From the NCBI RefSeq assembly GCF_000143885.2, contig NC_018581.1:1736001-1800000 (forward strand): a stretch of DNA of 64,000 bases, in the 5' to 3' direction. Shown in pieces: positions 645-46,887 of this stretch (position 1 is its first letter; each line of letters opens with the position of its first letter). The notes below the pieces were generated by a model. It saw nothing but the letters and a program-made list of their open reading frames with translations, ran no database searches and was not told the DNA's origin. The position numbers and the translations under genes are program-made. Origin of the DNA: Gordonia sp. KTR9 (GTDB taxonomy: Bacteria > Actinomycetota > Actinomycetes > Mycobacteriales > Mycobacteriaceae).

Positions 645-648
645 ACCG

Positions 649-9523: not shown

Positions 9524-9619
9524 CTCTCGTCCCCTTTTGTCGTCTGTCCCGTGGACACCCAACTGCGCCCGTCTGGGAGTTTCGCGTCTATTCAGTACAT
9601 ACGGGCGCTGATCCGACCT

Positions 9620-11324: not shown

Positions 11325-11372
11325 CATTGCACCTTTCATAAGGAGTTCGGATCGACCGACAGCGCATCGGCC

Positions 11373-13339: not shown

Positions 13340-14098
13340 TCAGCGCGGTGCCATCCGGAGGGCACCGTCGAGTCGGATGGTCTCGCCGTTCAGATACGGG
13401 TTGGAGACGATATGGAAGGCGAGTTCGGCAAACTCTTCGGGCTGGCCGAGTCGCGACGGATTGGGAACCGACGTCGCCAGCGATTGCCGAACATCGTCCC
13501 GCAGGCCCGCCAACATCGGCGTGTCCATGAGTCCGGGCGCGATTGTGCAGAGCCGAACGCCGCGCGAGGCCATGTCGCGGGCCCCGACAAGGGTCATACC
13601 GACGACTCCAGACTTTGAGGCCGCGTATCCCGCTTGCCCGACCTGGCCCTCGTATGCCGCGATCGAGGCAGTCATCACGATGACTCCCCGTTCGCCGTCA
13701 ACGTCGGGGTTCTGCGACATCGCCGCGGCAGCGTGACTTGCCACCAGGTAGCTGCCGACCAGGTTGGTCGACACGATGGCTGCAAACCGCTCGGCGTCGC
13801 CTGGTGTGCCGTCTTTGTCCACGAACCGCACCGGACCGCCGCGGCCGGCGGTGTGTACAACCGCGCGCATGTCGTTATTGACGTTGCCCGTGGCAACCGC
13901 GGCGGCGACCTGCTCAGCGTCGGTGACGTCGGTGGGTACAAAGGTCGCGCCCAGATCCCGGGCCCGGCTCTCGCCGTCTGAGGTTGGCAGGTCCGCGATG
14001 ACGACCCTGGCGCCCGCGGCGGCCAGCCTCCTGGCGGTTGCCAGTCCGAGCCCCGAGGCTCCGCCGGTGACGAGCGCCGACTGCGATGTGATGTGCAT
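13340..14098 (-). CDS. SDR dehydrogenase, 3-hydroxyacyl-CoA dehydrogenase type 2-like
   Basis: Classical short-chain dehydrogenase of 252 residues. The N-terminal NAD site reads VTGGASGLGLA (about residues 10-20). The catalytic tetrad includes the Ser in MTASIAAYEG and Y-A-A-S-K about 165. It resembles the HSD10/type-2 3-hydroxyacyl-CoA dehydrogenase group, which oxidises 3-hydroxyacyl-CoA and sometimes hydroxysteroids. I chose the ATG at 14098 because GAAAGGTAGG lies just upstream and the Rossmann fold starts nine residues later; a start 180 bases upstream would add an unconserved tail. It is the first gene of the leftward operon, and the control region to its right is shared with a divergent operon. 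Confidence 0.88.
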   Translation of the reverse strand: MHITSQSALVTGGASGLGLATARRLAAAGARVVIADLPTSDGESRARDLGATFVPTDVTDAEQVAAAVATGNVNNDMRAVVHTAGRGGPVRFVDKDGTPGDAERFAAIVSTNLVGSYLVASHAAAAMSQNPDVDGERGVIVMTASIAAYEGQVGQAGYAASKSGVVGMTLVGARDMASRGVRLCTIAPGLMDTPMLAGLRDDVRQSLATSVPNPSRLGQPEEFAELAFHIVSNPYLNGETIRLDGALRMAPR

Positions 14099-14590: not shown

Positions 14591-15346
14591 ATGAGTACAG
14601 TCACCACCCTGCTCGAAGGGCGCACCGCCGTCGTCACAGGGGCCGCGCAGGGAATCGGACTCGAGATCGCTCGCGTACTAGGCGTCCACGGCGCCAAGGT
14701 GGTGCTGGCCGACCTCCGAGATGATGCGGTACTCGAAGCCGCGGCCGGTCTGCGCGGGCAGGGCATCCAGTCGATCGGCGTGCAATGCGACGTCACCGAT
14801 GAGGACGAGGTTCGCAATGTCGTCGACCACGCAGTAACCGAGTTCGGCGGCCTCGACGTCTGGGTCAACAACGCCGGGATCACACGGGACGCCTCGCTGA
14901 AGAAGATGTCCCTCGCCGATTTTCGCCTGGTCACCGACGTTCACCTGACCGGAACGTGGCTGGGTGTGCGGGCCGCCTCGGCGAGGATGCGCGAGAACGG
15001 TGGTGGCGCGATCGTCAACATCTCCTCGATGTCGGGGAAGGCGGGAAATCCGGGTCAGACCAACTACTCAGCCGCAAAGGCCGGAATCGTCGGGATGACG
15101 AAGGCCGCCGCGAAAGAGTTGGCCCACCATGGTGTTCGCGTGAACGCTGTGCAACCCGGCCTGATCGAGACAGCCATGACCCGCGCGATGCCGGCCGAGT
15201 CCTTTGCTGCCATGGAGGCGAGCATCCCGATGCGACGGGCGGGACAGCCGGTCGACGTCGCAAACGTCGTGCTGTTCCTGTCCTCCGGACTGGCGGGTTA
15301 CATGACCGGTGCTGTGTTGGAGGTCGCCGGTGGCCGCCTCATGTGA
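14591..15346 (+). CDS. SDR dehydrogenase, FabG-like 3-ketoacyl reductase family
   Basis: Short-chain dehydrogenase of 251 residues with every classical motif: VTGAAQGIGLE (about 16-26), NNAGIT (about 93), the catalytic Ser in VNISSMSG, Y-S-A-A-K about 160 and the VQPGLI segment after it. It ends in a FabG-like DGA-type tail (LEVAGGRLM). In a catabolic operon it most likely oxidises a 3-hydroxyacyl-CoA. AAGGGAAA lies 5 bases before the ATG. It opens the rightward operon; the next gene follows after a 23-base gap. Confidence 0.9.
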   Translation: MSTVTTLLEGRTAVVTGAAQGIGLEIARVLGVHGAKVVLADLRDDAVLEAAAGLRGQGIQSIGVQCDVTDEDEVRNVVDHAVTEFGGLDVWVNNAGITRDASLKKMSLADFRLVTDVHLTGTWLGVRAASARMRENGGGAIVNISSMSGKAGNPGQTNYSAAKAGIVGMTKAAAKELAHHGVRVNAVQPGLIETAMTRAMPAESFAAMEASIPMRRAGQPVDVANVVLFLSSGLAGYMTGAVLEVAGGRLM

Positions 15347-15369
15347 GGGTGCCGGCGTGCACGGACCGA

Positions 15370-16539
15370 ATGCAGCGAAGGAGCGAAGAGATTAAGCGCA
15401 CGATCTTCTCCACCGAACACGACGACTTCCGTTCGACCATAAGGGCTTTCGTCGACAAAGAGGTGGTGCCGAACTTCTCGGCCTGGGAGCGCGCCGGCGT
15501 TGCGCCGCGCGAGCTGTACACCCGACTCGGTGAACTCGGAATCTTGGGCATCTACGTGCCCGAAGAATATGGGGGCAGTGGTCAGAGCAGCTACAAGTTC
15601 AGCGCCGTCCTCACCGAAGAAACGATGTCACGAGCGGTTGGCCTCGGTGCGCTGCGGGTCCATATGGACATAGTTCTGCCCTACTTCCTGCAGCTGTGCA
15701 ACGACGAGCAGAAGGCGCGGTGGTTGCCGGGGATCGGCAGCGGTGACCTCATGACGGCCATCGCAATGACCGAGCCCGCAACGGGATCCGATCTCGCGGG
15801 TGTGACGACCACTGCTGCGCGCGATGGCGAAGAGTTCGTGATCAACGGCGCGAAGACCTTCATTACGGGCGCGGTGAACGCTGATCTATTTCTCGTCGTT
15901 GTGCGGACCTCACCGGCCGGGGACGACCGCAGGACAGGGCTGAGCCTCATGGTGGTCGAGCGTGATCGGGTCGGTTTCAGTATCGGTCAGAACCTCGAAA
16001 AGCTCGGTCTGAAGGCCCAGGACACGGCGGAGTTGTCATTCACCGATGTCCGCGTGCCGGCGGCGAACCTTCTCGGCGAGGAGGGCGAGGCATTCCGCTA
16101 TCTCGGCAGCAACCTCCCGCAGGAGAGGCTCTCCATCGCGGTGGGTTCCATCGCGGCGGCCTCCGGCGCGGTACGGATGACCACAGACTACGTGCGTGAC
16201 CGCAAGGTGTTCGGGCGGAATCTGTCGTCTTTTCAGAACACCAAATTCGTTCTCGCCGAATGTTCGACAGAAATCGAGGCAGGGCAGGCGCTCGTCGACC
16301 GTGCGCTCGACGCGCATGACGCCGACGAGCTGACAGCCGTGGACGCGGCGAAGGTGAAGCTGTTCACCTCCGAACTACAGGGCCGAATCGTGGACCGCTG
16401 TCTGCAGCTCTTCGGCGGATACGGGTACATTCTGGAATACCCCATCGCACGTATGTACGCAGATGCGCGTGTCACCCGGATCTATGGTGGCACAACCGAA
16501 GTCATGAAGACAATCATCAGTAAGTCGCTCGGCCTGTGA
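15370..16539 (+). CDS. Acyl-CoA dehydrogenase, LCAD type
   Basis: Flavin-dependent acyl-CoA dehydrogenase, 389 residues from the first ATG. The C-terminal base position reads IYGGTTEVM (Gly instead of Glu). As in long-chain acyl-CoA dehydrogenases, the catalytic Glu is instead in LPQERLSIA in the middle helix, so the enzyme should be active. The AMTEPATGSD and FGGYGYILEYP segments are typical. Start: ATG 15370 has no good ribosome site. GAAGGAG is spaced 7 bases before an in-frame ATT at 15391, exactly where relatives begin (M/I-KRTIF). A non-AUG start is therefore plausible, giving 382 residues. Confidence 0.9.
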   Translation: MQRRSEEIKRTIFSTEHDDFRSTIRAFVDKEVVPNFSAWERAGVAPRELYTRLGELGILGIYVPEEYGGSGQSSYKFSAVLTEETMSRAVGLGALRVHMDIVLPYFLQLCNDEQKARWLPGIGSGDLMTAIAMTEPATGSDLAGVTTTAARDGEEFVINGAKTFITGAVNADLFLVVVRTSPAGDDRRTGLSLMVVERDRVGFSIGQNLEKLGLKAQDTAELSFTDVRVPAANLLGEEGEAFRYLGSNLPQERLSIAVGSIAAASGAVRMTTDYVRDRKVFGRNLSSFQNTKFVLAECSTEIEAGQALVDRALDAHDADELTAVDAAKVKLFTSELQGRIVDRCLQLFGGYGYILEYPIARMYADARVTRIYGGTTEVMKTIISKSLGL

Positions 16540-16585: not shown

Positions 16586-17749
16586 ATGAGAGACGCGGTA
16601 GTGGTTGCGGCGGTTCGTTCGCCGGTTGGAAGGCGTAATGGTGCGCTCTCAGAGCTTCATCCGGCGGATCTGTCCGCTCAGGTCCTCGCCGGGTTGGCAA
16701 GCCGGATCGACCTGGATCCGGCACTCGTCGACGATGTCATCTGGGGATGTGTATCCCAGGTCGGTGAGCAGTCGGGCAACATAGGGCGATTCGCCGTCCT
16801 CGGCGCGGGCTGGCCGGAGACAGTGCCGGCGACCACGATCGATCGTCAGTGCGGATCGTCTCAGCAGGCGGTTCACTTCGCGGCAGCAGGTGTGGTGTCG
16901 GGCCAGTACGACGTCGCTATCGCAGGTGGCGTCGAATCGATGTCACGTGTCCCGATGGGCAGCAATCGTGTCAACGGTCCGGGGAAGCCATACGGAGAAC
17001 TCGCCGTCGGACGCTACGACGGGGTCGTGTTCAACCAGGGAGTGAGCGCTGAGTTGCTTGCCGAGCGCTGGCAGTTGTCGCGCACTGATCTCGACCAGCA
17101 CGCCCTCGACTCGCACGCCAAGGCGGCCGCCGCCATCGACGCCGGCCTGTTCAGCGACGAGATCGTTCCCATTCGCACCCTCGATGCGGACGGAAACGAG
17201 GGACTCGTTCAGGTCGACGAGGGTGTGCGTCGCGGCGGTTCGCTGGAGTCGATGGCCGCCCTCAAGACCGTCTTCGCCGAGAACGGAGTCATCACCGCAG
17301 GGAATTCGTCGCAGATCTCCGACGGCGCCTCAGCTCTTTTGATCACGACCAGTGACATTGCCAGCGCACGTGGGTGGACGCCCTTGGCACGGCTCACCGG
17401 ATTCGCACTTGCCGGTGTAGACCCGGTGACGATGCTGACCGGCCCCATCCCCGCCACGGAGAAGGTGCTCAAGCAGCTCGGCATAGCCATCGACGACATC
17501 GACGCATACGAGATCAACGAGGCGTTCGCGAGCGTCTCGCTGGCTTGGCAGAAAGAGTTGGGCGCAGACCCCGCGAAACTCAACCAGCGGGGCGGTGCGA
17601 TCGCACTCGGTCATCCGCTGGGCGGCTCCGGCGGCCGACTCATGACCACATTGATCCACACGCTGCGCAGCACCGGCAAGCGCATGGGGCTGCAGGCCAT
17701 GTGCGAGGGCGGCGGAACTGCCAACGCGACCGTGATCGAGGCGTTGTGA
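16586..17749 (+). CDS. FadA5-like 3-ketoacyl-CoA thiolase
   Basis: Thiolase of 387 residues. Catalytic residues: Cys in DRQCGSSQQ (about residue 91), NEAFAS (about 312), His in IALGHPLGGSG (about 338) and Cys in AMCEGGGTAN. The N-terminal RSPVGRRNGALSELH, GEQSGNIGR and GGVESMSRV stretches resemble FadA5, the thiolase of mycobacterial cholesterol side-chain degradation, more than ordinary fatty-acid thiolases. That hints at a branched or terpenoid/steroid substrate, which is inference from recalled sequence only. GGGAGGAG lies before the ATG. The stop overlaps the next GTG start (GTGA). Confidence 0.9.
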   Translation: MRDAVVVAAVRSPVGRRNGALSELHPADLSAQVLAGLASRIDLDPALVDDVIWGCVSQVGEQSGNIGRFAVLGAGWPETVPATTIDRQCGSSQQAVHFAAAGVVSGQYDVAIAGGVESMSRVPMGSNRVNGPGKPYGELAVGRYDGVVFNQGVSAELLAERWQLSRTDLDQHALDSHAKAAAAIDAGLFSDEIVPIRTLDADGNEGLVQVDEGVRRGGSLESMAALKTVFAENGVITAGNSSQISDGASALLITTSDIASARGWTPLARLTGFALAGVDPVTMLTGPIPATEKVLKQLGIAIDDIDAYEINEAFASVSLAWQKELGADPAKLNQRGGAIALGHPLGGSGGRLMTTLIHTLRSTGKRMGLQAMCEGGGTANATVIEAL

Positions 17750-18504
17750 CCACCGGAACGAGGCCCTGGGCAGTCGTCCTTGGTGCCTCCGGAGGACTGG
17801 GGCGGGCTTGCGCCGCTGCCCTGGCCGCCGACGGGTGGGACATCGTCCTGCACTACCGTTCCAACAAGGACGGTGCTGATCGGACTGCCGCACTGGTCAG
17901 CGACAACGGCGGTGAGTCCGTCGCGGTGGCATCAGATCTCAGCGACCCGGCCGACGTCCTGCGCATGCGCAGTCAGCTCAACGTTCCGATTTCGGGTCTC
18001 GTGTATGCAGCGGGGCCCTATATCCCGATGGACTTCATCGCCAATACGCCCCCGGACGTCTTCGGAAATCAGCTTGATCAGGATACGAAGGCGTTCTACA
18101 ACGCTGTTCATGCATTCGTACCCATGCTGCGTGATACGCGCGGCGCGATCACTGCCGTGGTGACCCCCGTGATCGAGCGATACACCCGGGCCGACATCCT
18201 CTCGAGCGCGCCCAAGGCGGCCATCCAGGCGATCGTCCGGGGTCTCGCTGTCGAGGAAGGCCGCTTCGGTGTGACCGTCAATGCCGTCGGGGTCGGGGTC
18301 ATCGAGGGAGAGGGATTGTGGGGAGCTCTCAACGAAAACGGCGCCTTCACAGAGAAGGGCCTGTCCCAGGCTCTCAGCGCGGTGCCGCTTAAGCGGTTCG
18401 GCACTCCCGAGGATGTCGCCGGCGCGGTGCGCTTCCTCATGTCCCCGGCGGCGTCCTGGATCACCGGACAGACATTGAACGTCGACGGTGGTTACAGCGT
18501 CTGA
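17746..18504 (+). CDS. SDR-family protein lacking catalytic Ser and Tyr
   Basis: Rossmann-fold SDR homologue of 252 residues starting at a GTG that overlaps the thiolase stop by 4 bases. The nucleotide site is intact (LGASGGLGRA, residues 12-21) and the C-terminus has the usual ITGQTLNVDGGYSV. The active site is altered. The segment that should be Y-x-x-x-K reads SSAPKAAI, so Tyr is replaced by Ser while Lys remains; the catalytic-Ser strand reads AVVTPV; the usual NAG reads AAG; the P-G after the Asn-Ala-Val strand reads V-G. It may be a non-redox partner subunit or use another mechanism. Family call firm, activity unknown. Confidence 0.82.
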   Translation: MTTGTRPWAVVLGASGGLGRACAAALAADGWDIVLHYRSNKDGADRTAALVSDNGGESVAVASDLSDPADVLRMRSQLNVPISGLVYAAGPYIPMDFIANTPPDVFGNQLDQDTKAFYNAVHAFVPMLRDTRGAITAVVTPVIERYTRADILSSAPKAAIQAIVRGLAVEEGRFGVTVNAVGVGVIEGEGLWGALNENGAFTEKGLSQALSAVPLKRFGTPEDVAGAVRFLMSPAASWITGQTLNVDGGYSV

Positions 18505-18558: not shown

Positions 18559-19728
18559 ATGGACTTCACTCTCTCTCCGGCTCAGCTGGAACTCCAAGAA
18601 CGCGCGCGTGTCGCCGGCGAGGCCATCCGACATCGAGCCGCACGGTGGGACCGTGAAAATCACGTGCCCTACCAGGAAGTCGTCGACCACGTACGGAATC
18701 ATGACCTTCTCGCCCTCACAGTTCCCGTCGAGTACGGCGGGAAGGGCCTGAGCGCGCTGGACTACCTCGTCGTCGTCGAGGCGCTCTTCAGAAGCTCGCA
18801 GTTCTGGATCGTCGGCGAACCCGTGTTCGCCACAGCAGGGCCCGGCCCGTCGATGATGCTCCTGGCGGAGAACCCGGCCACGCGGGAGAAGTTCCTGCCG
18901 GGGCTGGTCAAGGGCGAACAGCAGTGCGCAATCGCCCTCACTGAACCCGGCTACGGATCGGATCTGACTTCGCTGGAGACGACGGCGGTCAAAGACGGTG
19001 ACAGCTACATCATCTCGGGAGACAAAAACTTCGTTACCGGGGCCCAGGTCAACGACCTCTACGCCGTGTTCGCACGCTTCGACGACATTCCCGGTCACCG
19101 TGGCATCGGCGCCGTCGTGATCGAGAAGGGTACCGAGGGATTCCACATCGATGACGGGCCCGAGTTCCTCGGATGCCGTGGCGTCCCGCATGGCGACCTT
19201 CGGATCGAGGACGTTCGGGTCCCGGCCGAGAACGTGATAGTCGGGCCCGGAAAGTTCGCAAAGTTGATGTCTGCGTTCAACATGGAGCGTCTTCACAACT
19301 GCGGCTTCAACCTCGGGATGGCCTCTGCCGCATACGATGAAGCGCAGAAGTATGTGAGCGAGCGCAAGGCCTTCGGTCGTCCGATTGCTGAATTCCAGTC
19401 CGTCTACCACACCCTTGTGGACATGTGGACAGACATCGAGGCCCTTCGGCTGATGGCGCAGCGCGCCGCATGTACCGCGGGCGACGGCAGCCATCCGAAG
19501 GTGCTGGAAACAACCGCGGCGAAACTCTATGGCGCCCGCGTCGCGTCGGGAATCACCCTCAAGGCGCTTGAGCTGCACGGCGGCTACGGCGCCACCACCG
19601 GTTACCCGATCGAGCGGCTCCATCGCGATGTCGTTGCGACGATCGTGGCCGGCGGCAGTCCGCCGGTTCTCCGCAATTCCATCGCGGCGACGCTGATGCC
19701 GGACACCCGCATCAGTCAGCGAGGGTAG
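18559..19728 (+). CDS. Acyl-CoA dehydrogenase with Ala/Gly at the usual C-terminal Glu site
   Basis: Acyl-CoA dehydrogenase of 389 residues with the ordinary domains (ALTEPGYGSDL about 125, ERKAFGRPIAEFQ about 272, LELHGGYGATTGYP about 335). The C-terminal segment that usually reads YEGTS is VAGGSPPVL, so the MCAD-type base is absent. A Glu occurs in FNMERLHN at the LCAD/isovaleryl-CoA position and could replace it. GAAGGACC lies before the ATG. It is last in the rightward operon, 54 bases after the atypical SDR. It could also be the non-catalytic half of a heteromeric dehydrogenase, as known for FadE pairs in mycobacteria. Confidence 0.85.
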   Translation: MDFTLSPAQLELQERARVAGEAIRHRAARWDRENHVPYQEVVDHVRNHDLLALTVPVEYGGKGLSALDYLVVVEALFRSSQFWIVGEPVFATAGPGPSMMLLAENPATREKFLPGLVKGEQQCAIALTEPGYGSDLTSLETTAVKDGDSYIISGDKNFVTGAQVNDLYAVFARFDDIPGHRGIGAVVIEKGTEGFHIDDGPEFLGCRGVPHGDLRIEDVRVPAENVIVGPGKFAKLMSAFNMERLHNCGFNLGMASAAYDEAQKYVSERKAFGRPIAEFQSVYHTLVDMWTDIEALRLMAQRAACTAGDGSHPKVLETTAAKLYGARVASGITLKALELHGGYGATTGYPIERLHRDVVATIVAGGSPPVLRNSIAATLMPDTRISQRG

Positions 19729-20135: not shown

Positions 20136-20759
20136 TCAGGGCAACAAGGCCGGCAGTATGAACTGGCGGATGAAGGTTTCGTATCGCTGATCGTCGGAGT
20201 CTTTGAACTTCATCAGATTGAAAAGGTCGAGTTGCGTCATCGCCAGCCAGGTATAGAGATCGGAGTCGTCCAATCCCGACCGCATTTCGCCTGCCGCTTG
20301 TGCCGCCTTGAAGAATCCGTCCCACAGCGCGGCGGTAAGTGATTCAGCGAGCTCGAGCGTCTTCAGCCAGCTGGCATCTTCCTGGTTGCCGGGATTGAGG
20401 GCGATGGCAACGATCGGGTCGTGGCGCGCATTGATCACCACGTGGAGGAGCCCGGCGGTGACCTTGTCGGCGAACGTCCAATCATTCCCGTCACGTGCCA
20501 GGAATTGCTGCGTTTCCTCGAGGACCTCGCGTGCACGAACATCCACAAGCGCTGTGACCAGCTCGGTCCGGTCATTGAAATAGCGGTAGACCGTGGGACG
20601 CGAGTATCCTGCTTCCTTCGCGATGTCGTCCATCGTGGTCTTGGCGATCCCGTACCGCAGGATGCACGAGCGTGCTCCCGACAGTATCGCCTCGCGCATT
20701 GAGTCGCGCGGAGACGGCGTCACGCCCGTCTCAGACGAGTCAACTCGTACCTCTGCCAT
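20136..20759 (-). CDS. TetR-family transcriptional regulator
   Basis: Repressor-type regulator of 207 residues. The N-terminal helix-turn-helix is clear at about residues 37-68 (TTMDDIAKEAGYSRPTVYRYF). The C-terminal ligand domain is helical and of normal length. An ATG at 20759 is preferred; a GTG three codons upstream is the alternative. It diverges from the carotenoid-oxygenase operon, and the 350 bases between them hold a strong palindrome overlapping a plausible promoter. By position it is the regulator of that operon, probably relieved by a pathway intermediate such as an acyl-CoA; that is inference. Confidence 0.88.
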   Translation of the reverse strand: MAEVRVDSSETGVTPSPRDSMREAILSGARSCILRYGIAKTTMDDIAKEAGYSRPTVYRYFNDRTELVTALVDVRAREVLEETQQFLARDGNDWTFADKVTAGLLHVVINARHDPIVAIALNPGNQEDASWLKTLELAESLTAALWDGFFKAAQAAGEMRSGLDDSDLYTWLAMTQLDLFNLMKFKDSDDQRYETFIRQFILPALLP

Positions 20760-21112
20760 CAGTCCCACTTCTGTTGTTGTTACATCCGACCCAACCCGCT
20801 GCCGTGCTCAAGCAGGACCGCTACGACGCGTCCGCTTGGCCACCAGCAACTGATCGCCCGACCGGCCGCTGCTGGGTAGAACATTACCGCCCGCGCAGAG
20901 CGCCGCGATGTGGCCGAAGCCGGATCGGATTGCTATTGCGAGTGTCGCCACGCCGATGTTACACTGATACAGAACATGGTTCATGTATCAGCCTGTGACT
21001 TTTACTGGCGCCCCAAGTCGTCTTGTCCCCGTATTGGTCTGTTGGGCCTGTTCCCCTCAGGGCATTGAGGCGACGGCAAATGGTGCCGCGAAGGTAGTAA
21101 CGGAGGTTTTCG
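20760..21112. other. Divergent promoter region of TetR gene and dioxygenase operon
   Basis: About 350 bases without a gene. A plausible rightward promoter is TTGCGA (about 20937) with an 18-base spacer and TACACT (about 20961). The palindromic operator starts immediately after it. Confidence 0.45.
20964..20991. promoter_or_regulatory. TetR-type palindromic operator
   Basis: Perfect 8-base arms CTGATACA and TGTATCAG lie 12 bases apart, and the centre holds a second small dyad, GAAC-atg-GTTC. The 28-base palindrome abuts the candidate -10 box of the dioxygenase promoter, so a bound dimer pair would block initiation. The adjacent TetR gene is the natural ligand. Confidence 0.65.
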
Positions 21113-22642
21113 ATGGGTATGGAGCAACGAGGCGTTTTCTGGCCGATGGCCTTTGAGGCAACGGTTCCGGAACTTCGGGTAGTCGAAGGGGAGATACCCA
21201 AAGACATCTATGGTGGGCTTTATCACAACGGCCCAACAGTCCACTACCCGGCCCGGCAGGGTATCGAAAGTGTTTTTACCACCGACGGTATGGTTCAAGG
21301 GCTTATCTTGGAGAACGGGAAGGCCAGCTTCCGCAATCGGTGGGTTCGGACGCCCAAGTTTCTTGCGGAAGAAGCAGCGGGACGGGCGCTTTTCGATTGG
21401 GAAGACTGCGAGGTCAGTAAAGACTGGCGCGCGATGGGGCTCGGAGACATCATCCGCAATGAGCAGACCGAGGGTGTTTCGAACAACACCGCCATGGTTA
21501 ATGCTTTCCCTTTCGCCGGCGAGATCTATGCCTGCGGCGAACAGGTAGGCTCGCCAATTCGTCTCGATCCTCTGACACTGGAGACGAAAGGGTTTCCTGA
21601 GTGGGGTGCCGGGCTGTCGAGGGGTATTCGCGAACCAGTGGATGCGTTCGATGGCAACATGTCGCCCCATCCGAAATGGGACGCGAAGACCGGGTTGTTG
21701 TACGGATGGGGCTACAGTGACCGACCCCCGTACGTGACGCTCCACTGGGTGTACCCCGATGGCACGATGCGCTCTCGGCCGATCACGGACGCTCCCTACA
21801 ATACGGTTGCACATGATGCTTGGCTCTCCGAGAACTACTTCATCCTTCCCTTCCAACCGTTCACGCTGTCCAGCGAGAAGGCCAACAAGGGATTGGGTGG
21901 CTATGGGTGGGAGGTCGAGAAGCCGATCATGCTGGCGCTGGTCGATCGCTTCAACATCGACGCGGAGATTATCTGGGTCACTGCTGAGCTTCCTCCGCAG
22001 TACATGATGCACATGCTGTCTGCGAACGAAGTCGGAGACACTATTCAGCTCGACGGCCCGCTGTTCGGCCGGCCGCCTTTCCAAACGGACGATATGTCTG
22101 CGCCGGGTGATCCGTTTATTCCATTCTTCCAGGTGGCCCCGAGCAAGTTGGGTCGCTGGACGATTGATCTGCGCACGAAAACCGTGAAGAGCGAAGTGCT
22201 CGATGACGTCATGTGCGAGCTACCCAAGATTGATGAGAGGTTCTTCGGGCAGCCCTATGACTGGGGTGTCATCGTCGGCGGTTCGCCGAGCGATAGCCGT
22301 AAGGGCGCGATGCGAATGGACACTCTGATCCGGCGTAACATGCGCACCGGAAGTGACCGGAGGGTGCGGCTCACGAATGACAAGCATGAGACTCCGTTCG
22401 AGCCTGCATTCATTCCTCGGGCAATCGATGCGGGGGAGGGAGACGGGTACTTGATCGTGCCGATTTCGAAGTTCGCCGCGCATCTCGGCGAGTTTCAGAT
22501 CTTCGACACCGACGACATCGCCGCAGGACCCATCTGCCGGATCGAACTGCCATTCCATATGGGTTGGACTCCGCATGGGCACTGGATGGACTTCCGCGGT
22601 GTCGACACGCCGAGTGACTTGACCGTCTCGGTAGCGGATTGA
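21113..22642 (+). CDS. Carotenoid-cleavage-type (RPE65/lignostilbene) dioxygenase
   Basis: Non-heme iron oxygenase of 509 residues in the carotenoid/stilbene cleavage family, which splits a C=C bond with O2 into two carbonyls. The four iron-ligand histidines are recognisable: H186 (SPHPKWD), H234 (TVAHDAW), H300 (MMHMLSANE) and H488 (TPHGHWMD). The N-terminal YGGLYHNGPTVHYP and FTTDGMVQG stretches are typical of the fold. There is no signal peptide, so it acts in the cytoplasm. It begins an operon with a crotonase and a thioesterase, downstream of a TetR operator. The substrate could be an apocarotenoid, stilbene, phenylpropene or another isolated alkene; the sequence does not say. Confidence 0.9.
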   Translation: MGMEQRGVFWPMAFEATVPELRVVEGEIPKDIYGGLYHNGPTVHYPARQGIESVFTTDGMVQGLILENGKASFRNRWVRTPKFLAEEAAGRALFDWEDCEVSKDWRAMGLGDIIRNEQTEGVSNNTAMVNAFPFAGEIYACGEQVGSPIRLDPLTLETKGFPEWGAGLSRGIREPVDAFDGNMSPHPKWDAKTGLLYGWGYSDRPPYVTLHWVYPDGTMRSRPITDAPYNTVAHDAWLSENYFILPFQPFTLSSEKANKGLGGYGWEVEKPIMLALVDRFNIDAEIIWVTAELPPQYMMHMLSANEVGDTIQLDGPLFGRPPFQTDDMSAPGDPFIPFFQVAPSKLGRWTIDLRTKTVKSEVLDDVMCELPKIDERFFGQPYDWGVIVGGSPSDSRKGAMRMDTLIRRNMRTGSDRRVRLTNDKHETPFEPAFIPRAIDAGEGDGYLIVPISKFAAHLGEFQIFDTDDIAAGPICRIELPFHMGWTPHGHWMDFRGVDTPSDLTVSVAD

Positions 22643-22653
22643 TCGGGGTACAG

Positions 22654-23517
22654 ATGGCAGAGCTGCAGGTGAGCGTTTCGGACGGCGTCGCGATACTGAC
22701 AATCGACCGTCCAGGCGCCAACAACTCGCTTGGCGGGTCGCTACTACGAGAACTGCTGGTCGTCGGTGAGGAGCTGAACCAGGACGACTCTGTCCGGGTG
22801 ATAGTGACGACAGCCAACGTCGTCGACGGAGCTACCGCTTGGAGTCCAGGAGTCGACTTCGCACAACTCGACGGCAAGTTGGGCCCCGATGCCGATGGTG
22901 ACGCGATGTTCTATGACGGCGTGATGGGGGGCGATCACAGTTGTCTTCACGTGTCACGACAGGGGCGGCGTTTTGATCCGTTGGGTCCGGGGCGTTGGAT
23001 TCTGCGGATGCTGGAGAACTTTGAGAAACCTTCTATTGCCGCCATCAATGGCGCGGTGGCGGGAGGAGGCCTGGGCTGGGCCGGCGTTCACACTTACCGG
23101 ATTGCCGGCGAAAGTGTGCGCTTCAAAGCGGCTTTCGCCACACTGGGCCTTGGTACTGACATGGGTGTCAGCTACTTTTTGACCAAGTTGATGGGACAAG
23201 CCGCGGCAACGGAGTTCCTTGTTCGGGACAAGGCCATGCGAGCGAGCGCCGCGTTGAACCATGGTTTGGTCAACGAGGTCGTGCCCGACGCCGAAGTCCT
23301 GAACCGTTCGATGGAGTTGGCTGCCGAACTGGCCGCGAAGCCGCCCTTGGGCATGCGGGCAATGGTTCGCTCGCTTCGCGGCGCGGAGTCGAACACGCTC
23401 GAGCAACAGCTGGCCATAGAGTGGGACAATCAGCGAGCCACATTCGCGACAGAGGACGCCGCGGCAGCATTCGAAGCGTTGCGAAGTGGTAGCAAGGCAA
23501 CCTATGTCGGACGTTGA
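22654..23517 (+). CDS. Crotonase-superfamily protein without the two hydratase Glu
   Basis: Crotonase-fold protein of 287 residues. The ATG at 22654 follows the dioxygenase stop by 11 bases with GGGGT upstream. Oxyanion-hole segments are visible (AWSPGVDF about 57; INGAVAGGG about 134). The two catalytic glutamates of enoyl-CoA hydratase are absent: the first site reads GGGLGWAG and the second AFATLGLGTDMG. It is therefore more likely an isomerase, lyase or hydrolase. The AWSPGVDF segment faintly recalls the AW-x-x-GMDL of feruloyl-CoA hydratase/lyases, which is suggestive only. An unusual about 30-residue insertion rich in Asp/Gly follows residue 65. The last 14 bases overlap the thioesterase gene. 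Confidence 0.85.
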   Translation: MAELQVSVSDGVAILTIDRPGANNSLGGSLLRELLVVGEELNQDDSVRVIVTTANVVDGATAWSPGVDFAQLDGKLGPDADGDAMFYDGVMGGDHSCLHVSRQGRRFDPLGPGRWILRMLENFEKPSIAAINGAVAGGGLGWAGVHTYRIAGESVRFKAAFATLGLGTDMGVSYFLTKLMGQAAATEFLVRDKAMRASAALNHGLVNEVVPDAEVLNRSMELAAELAAKPPLGMRAMVRSLRGAESNTLEQQLAIEWDNQRATFATEDAAAAFEALRSGSKATYVGR

Positions 23518-24247
23518 CAACGTCACGGCCGTCGAGTCACACGAGGGGATCGGTCCTGTCCACGCATACGCGTGGTCGCGGCTACTCACCGATGTGGAGG
23601 CTCCACCCGAACCGAGGCTGACCGACGAAATAATCTCACGACGGCTTGCGATCCGTGACCTCGGTCGTGCACTGCGAGCTACCGCTGACACTGCGGTGGT
23701 TTCGGAGGCGTCGACCGACGATGTGACTGCTGCAATCGAGATGCTGACCCGGGCCCGGGAGTTGCTGGGTGAGAAGCAACGTGAACCGACAGAGACGGCC
23801 TCGGTCGACGATCCCTTCCGCGGGCTACGGATGTACTCTCTCGGGGCGGGGGAGGGCAGCCCGATCCTCGCGCCTCTGCAGTTTGAACGGGTCGGCTCGG
23901 AACATGTCGCTCGAGTACGTCTCTCGCCGGCGTTTGAAGGGCCGCCGTATCACGTGCATGGTGGTGTGAGCGCGATGCTCATGGATCACGTTCTGGGTTT
24001 CGCGGTCGCATCGACCGTCGATCGGACCGGCCTGACCCGTCGTCTCACCATTGAGTACCGTGCGCCGGTTCCGATCGAGGTCGATCTCATCGTCGGCGGT
24101 GTGGTTCGTGCCGAGGGTGAGAGCGATATCTGGGCTCAGGGGTGGATCGCAACAGAAGACGAGCCGTCGAAGAGGTTAGTGACCGCTGAAGGCTCTTTCC
24201 GTGTGCTGAAAGCCGCGCAAGCTCAGGGGCTAGTGGCCGGTCTGTAG
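23504..24247 (+). CDS. Hotdog-fold acyl-CoA thioesterase with N-terminal extension
   Basis: Thioesterase-like protein of 247 residues. The C-terminal half is a PaaI/YbgC-type hotdog domain with the signature YHVHGGVSAMLMDHVLG (about residues 148-165), whose HGG/Asp pair binds and hydrolyses the thioester. The N-terminal 100 residues are helical and acidic and are not part of the fold. The ATG at 23504 overlaps the crotonase by 14 bases. As last gene of the operon it may release CoA from a product or dead-end intermediate. The family call is good, the substrate open. Confidence 0.83.
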   Translation: MSDVDNVTAVESHEGIGPVHAYAWSRLLTDVEAPPEPRLTDEIISRRLAIRDLGRALRATADTAVVSEASTDDVTAAIEMLTRARELLGEKQREPTETASVDDPFRGLRMYSLGAGEGSPILAPLQFERVGSEHVARVRLSPAFEGPPYHVHGGVSAMLMDHVLGFAVASTVDRTGLTRRLTIEYRAPVPIEVDLIVGGVVRAEGESDIWAQGWIATEDEPSKRLVTAEGSFRVLKAAQAQGLVAGL

Positions 24248-24750: not shown

Positions 24751-25776
24751 CTACATGCGGTTCGCGTGGTCCCAATTCTCAGAGGAAATCCGGTCCTCTT
24801 CGGCTTGGCTGCGGAGAATTGCTTCCTGAGCGTTCGGCGGCAGATCGGGCAGCATCTGGTGCACGCGCTCGCGGTGGCGGGCGATGGCCTTGCGTTCGGG
24901 CATACCGGGATTGGGCTGCACCTGCGGGATGATCTCGGTGAAGTCCTCCTTGGTACCACCACCGGAGATACCCGCGGCCGCCATCGCGGCCTCTTGGGCC
25001 ACCAGTGCCTCGTCCTTCTCCTCGGACATCCCGATCGGACCGAACCGATCACCGGAGAGGAACTGCTTGACCACCGGCTGCTCCGAGGTCAGCAACTGCT
25101 CACGCGGCCCGAACATCACCAACTCCTTACGGAACAACATCCCGATGTTGTCCGGGATCGTCCGCGCGATGTTGATGTTGTGCGTCACGATCAGGATCGT
25201 CGCATCGATCTGGGCGTTGATGTCGATCAGCAACTGGCTGATGTAGGCCGTACGCACCGGATCCAGACCCGAGTCCGGCTCATCACACAAAATGATCTGC
25301 GGATCCAGCACCAGCGCACGCGCCAGACCGGCACGCTTGCGCATACCGCCGGAGATCTCACCCGGGAGTTTGTCCTCGGCACCGGTCAGACCGACGAGGT
25401 CGATCTTCTCCATCACGATGTCGCGGACCTCGTTCTCCTTCTTCTTCGTGTGCTCACGAAGCGGGAACGCGATGTTGTCGAACAAACTCATCGACCCGAA
25501 CAACGCACCGTCCTGGAACAACACACCGAACAACTTGCGGATCTCATAGAGCTCCTTGGCCGAACACTGCGTGATATCGGTGCCATCGATGATCACCGAC
25601 CCCTGCTCCGGGTGCAGCAGACCGATCAAGGTCTTCAGGAACACCGACTTACCCGTACCCGACGGACCCAGCAGCGCCGACACCTCCCCCTCCGGCAGGG
25701 TCAGAGAGACATCACGCCAAATGTTCTGCGAACCAAACGACTTCGTCAGATTCTCGACACTGACTTGGACACCCAT
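24751..25776 (-). CDS. mceG: MceG/Mkl-type ABC transporter ATPase
   Basis: Cytoplasmic ATPase that powers Mce import, 341 residues. Walker A GPSGTGKS at residues 37-44, the Q-loop in LFQDGALFGSM, the ABC signature EISGGMRKRAGLAR, Walker B IILCDEPDSGLDP and the H-loop in VTHNI are all intact. After about residue 245 comes the C-terminal extension of about 95 residues typical of actinobacterial MceG rather than Mla ATPases. Codon choice is strongly biased to C/G endings, more than in the neighbours, which suggests strong expression or a separate history. MceG is normally unlinked to mce operons; here it sits 17 kb from one and next to catabolic genes. Confidence 0.93.
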   Translation of the reverse strand: MGVQVSVENLTKSFGSQNIWRDVSLTLPEGEVSALLGPSGTGKSVFLKTLIGLLHPEQGSVIIDGTDITQCSAKELYEIRKLFGVLFQDGALFGSMSLFDNIAFPLREHTKKKENEVRDIVMEKIDLVGLTGAEDKLPGEISGGMRKRAGLARALVLDPQIILCDEPDSGLDPVRTAYISQLLIDINAQIDATILIVTHNINIARTIPDNIGMLFRKELVMFGPREQLLTSEQPVVKQFLSGDRFGPIGMSEEKDEALVAQEAAMAAAGISGGGTKEDFTEIIPQVQPNPGMPERKAIARHRERVHQMLPDLPPNAQEAILRSQAEEDRISSENWDHANRM

Positions 25777-26010: not shown

Positions 26011-27165
26011 TTACCGTGACCGGCTCAGATCACGACCGATAATTCCTTTCATGATCTCCGTTGTGCCCCCGTAGATGGTTTGGACCCGCGCATCGATATA
26101 TGCACGTCCGACGGCATATTCGAGCATGTATCCGTATCCGCCGTGCAACTGCACGCACTGATCAATCACTTTCTTTTGCAGCTCGGTTGTCCACCACTTG
26201 CTCTTGGCGGCATCGACAGCAGTCAAGCGTGAGGCATTGTAATCGAGTATTTGACGGTCGATGTAGGTTTGCGCGATGTCGAGTTCGGTTGAGATTTCAG
26301 CCAGCGCGAATTGTGTCGTCTGGAAATCACCGATGAACTGGCTGAATGCACGCCGTTCGAAGCAGTAGTCGACTGTGAGGTCGAAAATCGAGCGAGCGTC
26401 GGCGACCGCGGCCACAGCGGTTCCCAGTCGCTCACGCGGGAGATGCGCCATCATGTAGCGAAGCCCTTGACCTGCTTCTCCGAGAAGGTGCGAGTCTGTC
26501 AGTTGAACGTTGTCGAAGAACAGTTCCCCGGTGTCCTGGGACCGGAGCCCGACCTTCTCCAGTTTGCGCCCGCGCGCGAAACCGTCCATGCCGGCTTCGA
26601 CGACGAAAAGGCTCAGTCCCAACGACGTTCCGTCACTTTCGGTCTGCGCCGCTACGATCACGATGTCAGAAGAGATCGCATGCGTGATGAAAGTCTTTTG
26701 GCCGTTCAAAACCCAGCGATCACCTTGCCGTTTTGCGACAGTCCGTATCCCACGCAGATCACTGCCTGCGCCAGGTTCGGTCATGGCCAGCGCGCCGATC
26801 AGGTCGCCCTGTCCGAAACGCGGGATCCACCTCGTCTTTTGTTCATCGGTTCCTAGGTCCAGAAGGTAATACAGGACGAGGTCGTCCTGGTTCGAAAAAC
26901 TTATGCTCACGGAGGTGGCGCGCGCACGGGCCAATTCCTCGCACACTACGCTGCGGTAGCGGTAATCAGAAACACCAGAACCGCCGTGTTCCTCGGGAAT
27001 CTCGAGCCCGTAGATGCCTGATTCGGTTGCGGCGCGAAATACCTTGCGATCGATCTGACCCGCCGATTCCCACTCGTCGTAGTACGGAGTCACCTCCCGA
27101 CTGATGAATTCACGAACTGTATCTCTATAAATTTCGTGGTCTTCGTCATAGATATCTCGGTACAC
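26011..27165 (-). CDS. Acyl-CoA dehydrogenase, LCAD type
   Basis: Acyl-CoA dehydrogenase of 384 residues. It has the LCAD arrangement: the catalytic Glu is in LPRERLGTA in the middle helix, while the C-terminal site reads IYGGTTEIM. AMTEPGAGSDLRG and LHGGYGYMLEY are present. I chose the GTG at 27165 because AAGGAG lies 6 bases before it and the conserved family start follows at once (VYRDIYDEDHE); this also leaves a 28-base gap after the ligase stop instead of an overlap. It is the last gene of a leftward operon (crotonase, CoA ligase, dehydrogenase). It closely resembles the enzyme at 15370 in layout. Confidence 0.9.
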   Translation of the reverse strand: MYRDIYDEDHEIYRDTVREFISREVTPYYDEWESAGQIDRKVFRAATESGIYGLEIPEEHGGSGVSDYRYRSVVCEELARARATSVSISFSNQDDLVLYYLLDLGTDEQKTRWIPRFGQGDLIGALAMTEPGAGSDLRGIRTVAKRQGDRWVLNGQKTFITHAISSDIVIVAAQTESDGTSLGLSLFVVEAGMDGFARGRKLEKVGLRSQDTGELFFDNVQLTDSHLLGEAGQGLRYMMAHLPRERLGTAVAAVADARSIFDLTVDYCFERRAFSQFIGDFQTTQFALAEISTELDIAQTYIDRQILDYNASRLTAVDAAKSKWWTTELQKKVIDQCVQLHGGYGYMLEYAVGRAYIDARVQTIYGGTTEIMKGIIGRDLSRSR

Positions 27166-27193
27166 TACCTGCTCCTTGAGTCTGATCTTTAGT

Positions 27194-28834
27194 CTATTTC
27201 TGTTGCGCGCTCGGCAGCTGTCCAGCAAGTATCTGACTCCGGACAGTCAATGTTTTGATTTTTCCTGACGCAGTCATGGGCAGCTCGCTCGCAAAGAACC
27301 ACTTCTGCGGTACCTTGTACTGTGCCAGCGATCCAGCACAGTGGTTTTTCACATTCGCAACCATTGCGTCGATTGACCCTTTTCCCGGACTGGTCACCAA
27401 CACGGCCGCAACCGTCTCGCCGAGGCGTTCGTCGGGCAGACCGACAACTGCGGCATCACGAACTTCTGGATGTCTGAGCAGCACGCCTCTCACCTCGTCC
27501 GGTGAAATGTTCTCGCCGCCGCGAATGATCAGTTCCTTAAGGCGGCCAGTGAGGCGTAGGACGCCGCGGTGGTCCATCGTGCCGATATCACCCGTGCGCA
27601 GCCATCCGTCAGTCGTGACGGCTCGGGCGGTTGCTTCGGGATCGCGATAGTATCCAAGCATCTGCTGGAACCCGCGGATGCAGATCTCTCCCGCCACACC
27701 GATGTCTGCTACCTTCCCAGTCTTGATTTCCAGCAATGCACATTCCACTTGGGGCAGCGGGCGTCCGATTGTGTTGGTGACATCTGCGACGGAGTCATCG
27801 TGGCGGGTAGCGATAACCGGAGCGCATGATTCGGTTTGGCCATAGACATTGAGAACATTGCCCCCAAAACGTCGACTGGTCTCTTCGATTACCCAACCGG
27901 GGACATTGGCAGCTCCGACGAGAATGGTCGGAATACGGACTTGATCGTCGGTCTCGACATTGAGCAGGTCCTGCAACATCGTAGGAACCAAAAGCGCGGT
28001 TGTCACATTTCGAGTCGAAATCGTCTTCATCACCTCGACTGCGTCCCAGCGATCAACAATGATCAGCGTGCCGCCGAGCGCCAGCGATCCGAGTGTCGAG
28101 GTCACGCAGCCTGCGGTGTGGAACTGCGGAAAAGGCGAGAGCAGCTTGCTGCCTCTTGGCACCCCGGTTGCGTGCATTGTGATCGCAGACACGTTCACCA
28201 TGGATCGGTGTGCGAGCATGACCGCTTTCGGTCGACCGGTGGTTCCGGAGGTGAACTGCATCATGCCCGGGGCTCGGACGTTCACTTCAGGCCACGCTCG
28301 TCGCTCCAAAAGAGATGGAGGCGAGGGTCTTTGAGCCCATTCCGCGACCTCCTCGAGTGAATATGACTCGAGAACCGTCGAACATTCGGCGACAAGGTGG
28401 GGGACCATCCCCGTCACATCGCTGTCTCGTTGCTGCCGCCCGTGAAGCAGCATCACGGAGTCCGAAATTGACAAGGTGTAGCGAATCTCGTCGTAGCCTG
28501 CCCTCGGGTTGAGCGCGACGACCACCCTCCCCGTGAGCGAGATGGCATAGAACATGAGGGGCCATTCGACGACGTTGGGGGCAAGTATCGCGATGTGGTC
28601 GCCCGGCTTCGTTCGATGAAGTATCTCAACCGCGATTGCTGCGACGCGACGCTCGACTTCGGAATAGGTGAGTTCGGCCTCCGAGCCTCGATGGTCGAGT
28701 CCGATCAGGGCAATTCGATTGGGCTGATCACCAGCCACGTCCGCCAGCTGCCGAGCGGCGTAACTCTCGACCAGGGCTACCGTCTGATCTTTCGGCCAAT
28801 AGGAATTGGCAAGCGGCGGACGTGCGGAAGTCAT
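27194..28834 (-). CDS. AMP-forming acyl-CoA synthetase/ligase
   Basis: Acid:CoA ligase of 546 residues in the ANL superfamily. It activates a carboxylic acid through an acyl-AMP to the CoA thioester, the entry step for the beta-oxidation enzymes around it. The P-loop-like motif MQFTSGTTGRPKAV (about 193-206), VYGQTES (about 328), GWLRTGDIG (about 420) and the catalytic lysine in MTASGKIK near the C-terminus are intact. The start overlaps the upstream crotonase stop by 4 bases. The class is secure; preferred acid (fatty, aryl or terpenoid) cannot be told. Confidence 0.92.
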   Translation of the reverse strand: MTSARPPLANSYWPKDQTVALVESYAARQLADVAGDQPNRIALIGLDHRGSEAELTYSEVERRVAAIAVEILHRTKPGDHIAILAPNVVEWPLMFYAISLTGRVVVALNPRAGYDEIRYTLSISDSVMLLHGRQQRDSDVTGMVPHLVAECSTVLESYSLEEVAEWAQRPSPPSLLERRAWPEVNVRAPGMMQFTSGTTGRPKAVMLAHRSMVNVSAITMHATGVPRGSKLLSPFPQFHTAGCVTSTLGSLALGGTLIIVDRWDAVEVMKTISTRNVTTALLVPTMLQDLLNVETDDQVRIPTILVGAANVPGWVIEETSRRFGGNVLNVYGQTESCAPVIATRHDDSVADVTNTIGRPLPQVECALLEIKTGKVADIGVAGEICIRGFQQMLGYYRDPEATARAVTTDGWLRTGDIGTMDHRGVLRLTGRLKELIIRGGENISPDEVRGVLLRHPEVRDAAVVGLPDERLGETVAAVLVTSPGKGSIDAMVANVKNHCAGSLAQYKVPQKWFFASELPMTASGKIKTLTVRSQILAGQLPSAQQK

Positions 28835-29706
28835 CGAGATCTCTGAGCAATGTCGTTGAACGGCGGCTCGTCAGCCCACGGGAACCATGCAGGCAATTCG
28901 TCGCTCGGGCGCATCGACCACTTGGGTGATCTCTTGTCGAGGAATGCAGTGACTCCCTCGGCTGCATCGCGGGAGGCGCCGGTGTAGGTAAGCGCGGCCG
29001 ACTCGATCTCGTGCGCCGTCATCGGGTGTGAAGCGCCGCTCATCTGCCATAACATTTGCCGAGTCAGGGCGACAGATACTGGAGCGGTCTGCTTCGCGAT
29101 GCTGTTCGCGATCTGTCGGGCGGCATCGAGCACCTCATTGGCTGGGTGCGCGCTCTGGACAAGGCCCGAACTCAGTGCCTCGTCGGCTCGAAAAATGCGA
29201 CCAGAGATCGACCAGTCGATGGCTCTGCTGAGGCCAACTGCCTTCGGCAAGAACCAGCTGGATGCGCCGTCCGGAACTATGCCGCGTGCCGTGAAGGGCA
29301 GACCAAGTTTTGCGCTGTCCGCGACCACTCGTATGTCCATCGGCAGGGTCAACGACAAACCAAAGCCAACTGCAGATCCGTTGATTGCGGCTATGACAGG
29401 TTTGAGGGATGCAAAGATTCTCAACGTGACTCGGCCGCCCGAGTCACGGCGTACGCCGGCGGACGAATCCCCGCCATCGGTGGCGTGCTCGAAAGCATCT
29501 GCGCCGGAGGATAAATCGGCGCCTGCGCAGAACGCTCGCCCAACTCCGGTCACGATGATTGCCCGAACAGAATCATCCGAGTCGGCCAGGTCGAACGCGG
29601 CGATGAGCTCGTCGCACATCACGGTCGTCACGGCGTTGAGCTGGTCCGGTCGGTTGAGGGAGATCGTGGCGACTCCGTCGGCAACGTCGTACAGTACTTG
29701 CTTCAC
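28831..29706 (-). CDS. Crotonase-superfamily protein with non-standard active site
   Basis: Crotonase-fold protein of 291 residues beginning at a GTG. Oxyanion-hole motifs are present (FCAGADL about 60; INGSAVGFGLSLTLPMD about 112). The glutamates of hydratases are replaced: GFGLSLT at the first site and FTARGIVPDGASSW at the second, a pattern closer to enoyl-CoA isomerases (R/x-G-I-x-P-D). A Ser/Gly/Asp-rich insertion lies at about 68-90. It heads a leftward operon with the CoA ligase and an LCAD-type dehydrogenase, so it may move or create a double bond before dehydrogenation. Confidence 0.83.
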   Translation of the reverse strand: MKQVLYDVADGVATISLNRPDQLNAVTTVMCDELIAAFDLADSDDSVRAIIVTGVGRAFCAGADLSSGADAFEHATDGGDSSAGVRRDSGGRVTLRIFASLKPVIAAINGSAVGFGLSLTLPMDIRVVADSAKLGLPFTARGIVPDGASSWFLPKAVGLSRAIDWSISGRIFRADEALSSGLVQSAHPANEVLDAARQIANSIAKQTAPVSVALTRQMLWQMSGASHPMTAHEIESAALTYTGASRDAAEGVTAFLDKRSPKWSMRPSDELPAWFPWADEPPFNDIAQRSR

Positions 29707-34042: not shown

Positions 34043-34262
34043 GTGCTGTGGCGTCGAGTTGCCTCCGAGGCAATCACTCGGATTCATCGACCGGCGCGAC
34101 GGGGCATTCGCCGGGGGTCACCCGATCCGGCAGTTCGGCCTGCGTCGCCGGAGGACGCAGCTGAGCTGCCGGCATGTCGGCACCTGACAGATGCCCGTTC
34201 GCCGTTGGCGGTGTCGGAATCGGGCTGCAGGTCTGCGCATCCCAACTACAATGGGGCACCAT

Positions 34263-45240: not shown

Positions 45241-45359
45241 GTGTTCATCTCACCAGACGCCGCACCGCCACACGCGGTACGCAGAGTCGGGAGGGTCGCC
45301 CATCTCGGGGGCTGATTGACTACGAACAGCGCGGTATCCCCTGTATGAAAGGCGGCTCG

Positions 45360-46832: not shown

Positions 46833-46841
46833 CCGGCTGGT

Positions 46842-46872: not shown

Positions 46873-46887
46873 GCGACGACCCGGGCG

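Follow-up and report, generated by a model that had tools for sequence, protein, structure and literature searches.

What might a carotenoid-cleavage-type dioxygenase be doing among genes for the beta-oxidation of acyl-coenzyme A (CoA) esters? The question arises at positions 20136–24247 of a 64,000-nucleotide stretch of the Gordonia sp. KTR9 chromosome (NC_018581.1, positions 1,736,001 to 1,800,000; hereafter the window), part of a 5.89-Mb genome in 4 contigs. The locus encodes a carotenoid cleavage oxygenase (CCO) with a regulator, a crotonase and a thioesterase. Our preferred answer, with a probability of roughly 0.55, is that the CCO carries out oxidative C=C cleavage within an acquired island that degrades a hydrophobic, probably isoprenoid or terpenoid, compound, probably of a kind found in plants. 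From the sequence itself this reading draws on the genes present, a low guanine-plus-cytosine (GC) content, recurrence of the set in Rhodococcus koreensis R85, a CCO clade of its own and a missing stilbene-site lysine. The four genes lie where a first-pass annotation had placed them, with Pfam profiles and coordinates in agreement, and the palindrome is present too:

20136..20768, minus strand: TetR-type regulator (PF00440, TetR_N, 54.6 bits; 54% relative on R85 plasmid unnamed4)
20964..20991, no strand: palindrome CTGATACA-N12-TGTATCAG, likely TetR operator, 121 bases upstream of the CCO start
21113..22642, plus strand: CCO-family dioxygenase of an uncharacterised clade (RPE65, PF03055, 278.9 bits)
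22654..23517, plus strand: crotonase with PaaG-type Asp169 and without the two hydratase Glu residues (ECH_1, PF00378, 129.4 bits)
23504..24247, plus strand: PaaI-like hotdog acyl-CoA thioesterase (PF03061, 4HBT, 30.4 bits; matches to PDB 2ov9 and THEM4)

A separate clade of cleavage dioxygenases

The CCO aligns to positions 2–468 of the 469 in the RPE65 model, far above the cut-off of 27 bits, and carries all four histidine iron ligands expected of the four-His dioxygenase first proposed here. These ligands (His186, His234, His300 and His488) are invariant among the 120 listed of its 356 relatives, in which the second-shell glutamates are also strongly kept (E143 is Glu in 113 and Asp in 7; E369 and E430 are Glu in all 120). 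The closest solved structures by sequence and by fold are the lignostilbene-alpha,beta-dioxygenases (LSDs) LSD4, PbLSD, NOV1 and LsdA, which share its fold, 4-His iron site and Glu shell; the AlphaFold model (predicted local distance difference test score, pLDDT, 90.8) gave LSD4 and LsdA as best folds (template-modelling score ~0.8, 26–28% identity in structural alignment). The CCO probably cuts a C=C bond as one step of a pathway.

We placed the protein in a maximum-likelihood tree of 57 rows. It sampled nine of the 120 listed CCO proteins, 10 of 30 CCO loci and the genome's second CCO (L001), with 5v2d (the Pseudomonas brassicacearum LSD) and 6xm6 (SYK-6 LSD4) as reference rows; L055 was removed by filtering. 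The window CCO fell in a 43-row clade (support 100/100, stem of 1.64 changes per site), apart from the LSDs, which grouped with a locus of the same genus (L052) at 100/98, and apart from the other family CCOs in the tree, including L001. Deep branching order is unsure because the tree tool flagged long branches. The first-pass annotation had allowed for a known biosynthetic clade; none claimed the protein, biosynthetic CCOs having entered only through family models and unnamed relatives.

Clade members occur in Mycobacterium, Mycolicibacterium, Nocardia, Rhodococcus, Amycolatopsis, Nocardioides, Streptomyces and Spongiibacter, and the nearest named database relative among the matches listed is from Gordonia sp. 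NPDC058843 (80%). Their distribution is patchy, with a strong match in 1 of 59 genomes of the genus and matches at E below 1e-150 in only three of 301 family genomes (G000, which is its own, G266 and G253). Acyl-CoA dehydrogenase genes lie near the CCO in 21 of 26 clade loci compared with 2 of 20 control stretches (Fisher p=3e-6, a value that flatters because the loci are interrelated and the controls come from other genomes). This count took the 26 of 30 CCO loci that span at least 19 kb, omitting the shorter L011, L016, L029 and L030. The other gene types were each not significant alone: enoyl-CoA hydratases occurred in 10/26 loci and 4/20 controls, ligases in 6/26 and 3/20, and both thiolases and Mce genes in 4/26 and 0/20. 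The thioesterase lay near the CCO in none of the 26. Five mycobacterial loci (L009, L019, L020, L024 and L027) have a common gene block beside the CCO; the L019 block, the only one scanned, contains flavin oxidoreductases, DUF1295, luciferase-like monooxygenases and Mce proteins.

Cleavage of apocarotenoids or retinoids, whether taken up or made by the cell itself, is the alternative that survives best, and we regard it as unlikely. It would accord with the general function of the CCO family and with the flavin oxidoreductase next to the five mycobacterial CCOs (~50% identity), which in the one scanned copy (L019) matches NAD_binding_8/amine oxidase and by eye resembles a CrtI-type desaturase. 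In passages of PMC6097328, the authors' model of PbLSD has Lys135 at the edge of a tunnel that opens for carotenoids, and the clade has Gly, Ser or Ala at this position. Against this, the CCO scored 160.2 bits with the 8'-apo-carotenoid 13,14-cleaving model (CarotCleavDioxg, NF052295), so far below its cut-off of 675 that membership was rejected. The genome also holds a second, different CCO, and the surroundings consist of dehydrogenases, ligases and thiolases, with no carotenoid-biosynthesis family among the matches of the scanned island genes. When 101 family genomes were searched for members of the apocarotenoid model nothing matched, and the controls were also silent.

The island and its conservation

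GC content is 0.611 over positions 1–34973 and 0.680 right of 42 kb, against a chromosome mean of 0.683 (standard deviation 0.012, twenty 20-kb stretches). The low-GC block starts some 12–15 kb left of the window, and transposase genes lie at 35–41 kb. This island is an acquired mobile catabolic module, since its genes recur on two linear plasmids of R. koreensis R85, the source of the best CCO match among plasmids. At thresholds of at least 45% identity and at least 60% coverage, 26 of 38 island genes matched in L066/L067 of R85 and 8 more in the adjoining L098, giving 34/38 (45–85% identity), compared with 4/38 in 400 kb of the window's own chromosome, so the shared set goes beyond chance. 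The four misses are a thiolase (34%), an acyl-CoA dehydrogenase (36%), the DUF7065 protein described below (42%) and a phosphatase (33%). The neighbourhood that the first-pass annotation had singled out is thus kept, as a gene set, in another genus.

Smaller portions are found elsewhere. Mycolicibacterium rhodesiae JS60 has 7/38 genes at 45% or above, including the CCO (73%), an acyl-CoA dehydrogenase (76%), DUF7065 (71%), a dikinase (64%), a cytochrome P450 (P450; 52%) and a ligase (49%), and plasmid pRZP2 of Rhodococcus sp. ZPP keeps 5/38. Database clusters of the CCO and of the crotonase subfamily have matching longest-contig values (10968, 39672, 6774) and source, and those of the CCO and DUF7065 have the value 108875 in common, which suggests that the three sets of clusters lie partly on the same contigs.

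Gene order is less stable. The series TetR–palindrome–CCO–crotonase–thioesterase, read as one regulated operon in the first-pass annotation, is not kept in R85, in which ~13 kb separates the CCO from the crotonase and thioesterase and a different plasmid carries the best TetR match; a fixed CCO–crotonase–thioesterase operon was rejected on these grounds. In the window, a candidate operon is plausible because the spacing is tight or overlapping (CCO stop at 22642, crotonase ATG at 22654; thioesterase ATG at 23504, before the crotonase end at 23517). The TetR gene is divergent from the CCO, and the palindrome between them is plausible as a predicted TetR operator. When TGATACA-N12-TGTATCA was allowed up to 2 mismatches, five sites were found in the genome, of which the locus palindrome is the sole zero-mismatch copy. 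No palindrome like it was found near the relatives' CCOs or TetRs in five stretches (two had unrelated inverted repeats and three had none), and a sigma-70 promoter scan returned 0 hits, with shuffles averaging 1.0.

The R85 plasmids also carry CCO-like fragments (69–74%; L066:7945-8112, L066:37009-37122 and L067:8858-8971), two of which sit just ahead of genes for a TetR regulator, a short-chain dehydrogenase/reductase (SDR), a crotonase and a thioesterase; they are likely relics of a second CCO copy. Genes for COX4_pro and COX3-type cytochrome oxidase subunits lie near the R85 CCO or crotonase (L066:33476-34299; L067:5327-6213), and similar-looking ones were seen by eye near the CCOs of L013 and L028.

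A patchwork island, in which the CCO, crotonase and thioesterase have a separate task (for example, detoxification) and neighbour the beta-oxidation genes by chance, would explain the divergent regulators, the use of several strands, the transposase genes, the unconserved operon order and the shuffling implied by the R85 fragments. We consider it improbable, since 34 of 38 genes are conserved in another genus and the linkage to acyl-CoA dehydrogenases extends across the clade.

Substrate and proposed pathway

The residues of the active site bear on what the CCO would cleave. Passages of PMC8191317 single out Phe59, Tyr101 and Lys134 as central to catalysis by a lignostilbene dioxygenase. The Phe59 equivalent is F55 in the window CCO (Leu in 24 of 43 clade rows). 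At the Lys134 column, the window CCO has G142 and the clade Gly (34), Ser (8) or Ala (1), leaving Lys absent from all 43. The Tyr101 column, which adjoins an insertion, holds Glu (E97) in the window CCO; the HMMER alignment sets Trp105 opposite Tyr101, at a position that is Trp in 113, Tyr in 6 and Phe in 1 of the 120 listed relatives. The Ser283 column is Met in 40 rows, the window CCO among them, and Leu in 3, and the Leu475 column is Pro in 43/43. As aligned, every clade row is without the Lys that binds the phenol in the stilbene site, and the window CCO is without the Tyr as well. Because the clade is without the stilbene-binding Lys134, 4-hydroxystilbenes are disfavoured as substrates, and a terpenoid or isoprenoid is the likeliest.

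A lignostilbene- or phenylpropene-type dioxygenase for lignin-derived aromatics is accordingly the least probable of the alternatives and, as a leading reading, was ruled out by model score, residues and tree: it has in its favour the LSDs as closest structures, the retained Phe, LigStilDioxAlpha (NF053778) as best NCBIfam model and the origin of R85, an apple rhizosphere isolate whose paper, in the portions consulted, is about phenolics (PMC10986565), but the 231.5 bits are far below that model's cut-off of 800 (and the 145.3 for the lignostilbene model NF053780 below 650), the Lys, Tyr, Ser and Leu are all replaced in the window CCO, which lies outside the LSD clade and in an acyl-CoA dehydrogenase/Mce setting, and no vanillin/protocatechuate pathway appeared among the Pfam and NCBIfam matches of the scanned island genes, although no search was dedicated to it. 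The words 'carotenoid', 'Mce', 'terpen' and 'lignostilbene' are nowhere present in the main text of PMC10986565.

The crotonase, too, departs from the family standard. In 40 of 57 subfamily proteins, what we take from the crotonase literature to be the first hydratase Glu position is Gly (26), Ser (9) or Ala (5) and the second is Phe (39) or Leu (1), so that neither enoyl-CoA hydratase Glu is present; the PaaG Asp position, whose catalytic role we assume from the same source, is Asp (25), Glu (14) or Gly (1), with D169 in the window protein. The enzyme is most likely a double-bond (enoyl-CoA) or epoxide isomerase, judging by these residues. Like PaaG-type crotonases it keeps the catalytic Asp with the hydratase Glu replaced, but it is ~30 residues longer before the core and belongs to a small, rare subfamily, found at E of 1e-30 or below in 3 of 301 genomes including its own, the other two proteins being only 31–38% identical.

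Degradation of an isoprenoid or terpenoid with the CCO as its cleavage step would then run as follows, the order of the second to fifth steps being tentative. The Mce system would import the hydrophobic compound. A P450 with its redox partner, a mycofactocin-coupled dehydrogenase, an aldehyde dehydrogenase and a CoA ligase would carry out terminal oxidation to an acyl-CoA, which acyl-CoA dehydrogenases, hydratases, SDRs and thiolases would shorten while the PaaG-type crotonase moved awkward double bonds. A dikinase would phosphorylate a hindered alcohol and the DUF7065 protein would remove the phosphate to leave an alkene. The Fe(II) CCO would cut a double bond impassable for beta-oxidation, returning two carbonyl fragments to the oxidation and shortening steps, and the thioesterase would free CoA from dead-end esters. 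Finally, the TetR protein would repress the CCO operon through its single palindrome until a ligand is present. Of the pathway originally proposed, the catabolic role, the import and the degradation as CoA esters stand; its stilbene and phenylpropene substrates are weakened by the loss of Lys134 in the clade and of the Tyr in the window CCO.

The alcohol-to-alkene step would involve a gene pair further right in the island:

30534..33095, plus strand: phosphoenolpyruvate (PEP)-synthase-like dikinase, proposed alcohol kinase (PF01326, PF00391; frame from 30180; intact phospho-His motif GGALSHAA)
33158..34042, plus strand: DUF7065 protein, proposed phosphoester lyase (PF23213; AttH/25-phosphosteroid-lyase fold)

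The DUF7065 model (pLDDT 92.2) has a two-domain AttH-like fold and resembles 25-phosphosteroid lyase and isoprenoid hydratases, and we propose that the pair catalyses a predicted dehydration of an alcohol to an alkene at the cost of adenosine triphosphate (ATP). A kinase-type gene is found no more than 8 kb from DUF7065 or its relative in all 15 loci examined (the window, 5 plasmid matches, 7 other genomes and the CCO loci L003 and L032; the 412 database relatives stand outside this count). The precedent is the 25-hydroxysteroid kinase (25-HSK) and 25-phosphosteroid lyase of Sterolibacterium denitrificans, whose lyase fold the DUF7065 model resembles, but at only 17% identity over the fold, and a profile of 46 DUF7065 sequences matched no PDB chain at E of 1 or below, so that no kinship to the lyase is recognisable from sequence. 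The kinases differ as well: the island enzyme is a PEP-synthase-like dikinase, whereas passages of PMC8449060 describe an enriched 25-HSK fraction with 30, 40 and 50 kDa bands and phosphotransferase-family relatives. The island setting is also aerobic, with a P450 and a CCO. The kinase on Rhodococcus rhodochrous pNit has an 'aminoglycoside phosphotransferase-like protein' as its nearest solved chain.

In L107-L113, L070 and L117 the dikinase is apparently split, its homologues matching the window dikinase partly or being separate 'pyruvate, phosphate dikinase' and 'PEP-utilizing enzyme' genes. The DUF7065/kinase module is not confined to Actinobacteria, since it also occurs on a Diaphorobacter plasmid beside ring-hydroxylating dioxygenase genes (L117) and on a Novosphingobium plasmid beside P450 and TonB genes (L118).

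A bolder form of the proposal, which we hold to be doubtful, is an aerobic 'make alkene, then cut' route that moves between genera on linear plasmids: the dikinase and DUF7065 protein would dehydrate an inert, probably tertiary, terpenoid alcohol and the CCO would cleave the product, ATP-costly C=C formation and cleavage together bypassing branch points that block beta-oxidation. If true, it would bring in an ATP-dependent dehydration that works aerobically, together with a biocatalyst that cleaves alkenes without needing a 4-hydroxyaryl group. The present analysis gives an uncharacterised CCO clade a concrete metabolic setting and a short testable substrate list; for DUF7065, the fold and the linked kinase-type genes suggest a function.

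The nearest general parallel is actinobacterial sterol side-chain catabolism, which employs Mce4, CYP125, ligases, acyl-CoA dehydrogenases and thiolases and follows the same logic as the island (Mce import, a P450, CoA ligation, beta-oxidation and TetR control). The island differs in adding a CCO, a mycofactocin SDR and the dikinase/DUF7065 pair, in a comparison that did not extend to sterol-ring enzymes. P450 and CoA steps of that catabolism also appear in PMC8449060. As far as we have seen, the enzyme families of the island are known and the CCO clade and gene combination uncharacterised; the searchable literature on CCOs in such settings, which leaves out most subscription journals, held no description of this gene set.

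Remaining genes of the island and window

The first-pass annotation described the surroundings of the dioxygenase correctly (four acyl-CoA dehydrogenases, two thiolases, SDRs and one CoA ligase) but overlooked the dikinase/DUF7065 pair and the part of the island left of the window. That part holds, in succession, a TetR-like gene, a ferredoxin/flavin adenine dinucleotide (FAD) protein, a P450, an adenosine monophosphate (AMP) ligase, an aldehyde dehydrogenase and a 135-aa protein, followed by a mycofactocin-coupled SDR and the first Mce permease. The SDR (L095:17304-18161) exceeds the TIGR03971 cut-off (327.8 against 300 bits), and the genome carries mftC for mycofactocin (649.7 against 265 bits). 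The ligase and aldehyde dehydrogenase have NCBIfam matches below the cut-offs, and the P450 was named from matches to many solved P450s (best CYP125MRCA, CYP143 and others, with P450cin and P450terp lower), which do not indicate its substrate; the remaining genes were named by homology to annotated R85 or Mce-operon genes. Only with this left part is the Mce importer complete, as had been claimed for the window alone, with two permeases, six Mce proteins and an ATPase. MceC, MceE, MceF and the first permease (L095:18831) were assigned through their homologues in the Mce operons of R. rhodochrous pNit and R85. The other island genes in the window are:

3..6712, plus strand: MlaE/YrbE permease (5' end left of the window) and six Mce-type genes (PF02405 once, PF02470 three times; 4/7 Pfam-scanned)
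8330..9562, minus strand: ferredoxin reductase-like flavoprotein (PF07992, PF14759; 49% in R85)
9620..10825, minus strand: thiolase (PF00108; only a 34% match in R85)
10869..11339, minus strand: MaoC-type hydratase (PF01575; 50% in R85)
11373..12158, minus strand: enoyl-CoA hydratase (PF00378; 48% in R85)
12155..13312, minus strand: acyl-CoA dehydrogenase (only a 36% match in R85)
13340..14098, minus strand: SDR dehydrogenase (longer frame to 14278; 65% in R85)
14591..15346, plus strand: SDR, FabG-like (NF004198, 341 bits, cut-off 296)
15343..16539, plus strand: acyl-CoA dehydrogenase (longer frame from 14956; 70% in R85)
16586..17749, plus strand: thiolase (73% in R85)
17746..18504, plus strand: SDR-like gene (named only by 56% identity to an R85 unnamed4 SDR; no NCBIfam match at 1e-60)
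18559..19728, plus strand: acyl-CoA dehydrogenase (72% in R85)
24751..25776, minus strand: MlaF/MceG-like transporter ATPase (PF00005; 77% relative beside the R85 Mce genes)
26011..27228, minus strand: acyl-CoA dehydrogenase (65% in R85, 76% in M. rhodesiae)
27194..28834, minus strand: AMP-forming acyl-CoA ligase (PF00501)
28831..29706, minus strand: enoyl-CoA hydratase (NF006109, 393 bits, cut-off 320)
34251..34973, plus strand: Y_phosphatase3 protein, directly after DUF7065 (33% relative on R85 plasmid unnamed4)

All seven permease/Mce genes have homologues among the permease/MlaD/Mce genes of pNit and on an R85 plasmid. The genome has 65 acyl-CoA dehydrogenase N-domain matches in total, four of them within about 15 kb at this locus, and a second acyl-CoA dehydrogenase/hydratase cluster (L073, G000:C2:600001-620000) is 46–55% like the island genes. 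Outside the island, at normal GC content, the window holds a sugar-utilisation region at 44227-54373 (LacI regulator, MFS transporters, FGGY kinase and RhaA-like isomerase) and an MPAB_Lcp_cat gene of the rubber-oxygenase/mpaB family (57120-58358) followed by an MMPL transporter (58413-60686).

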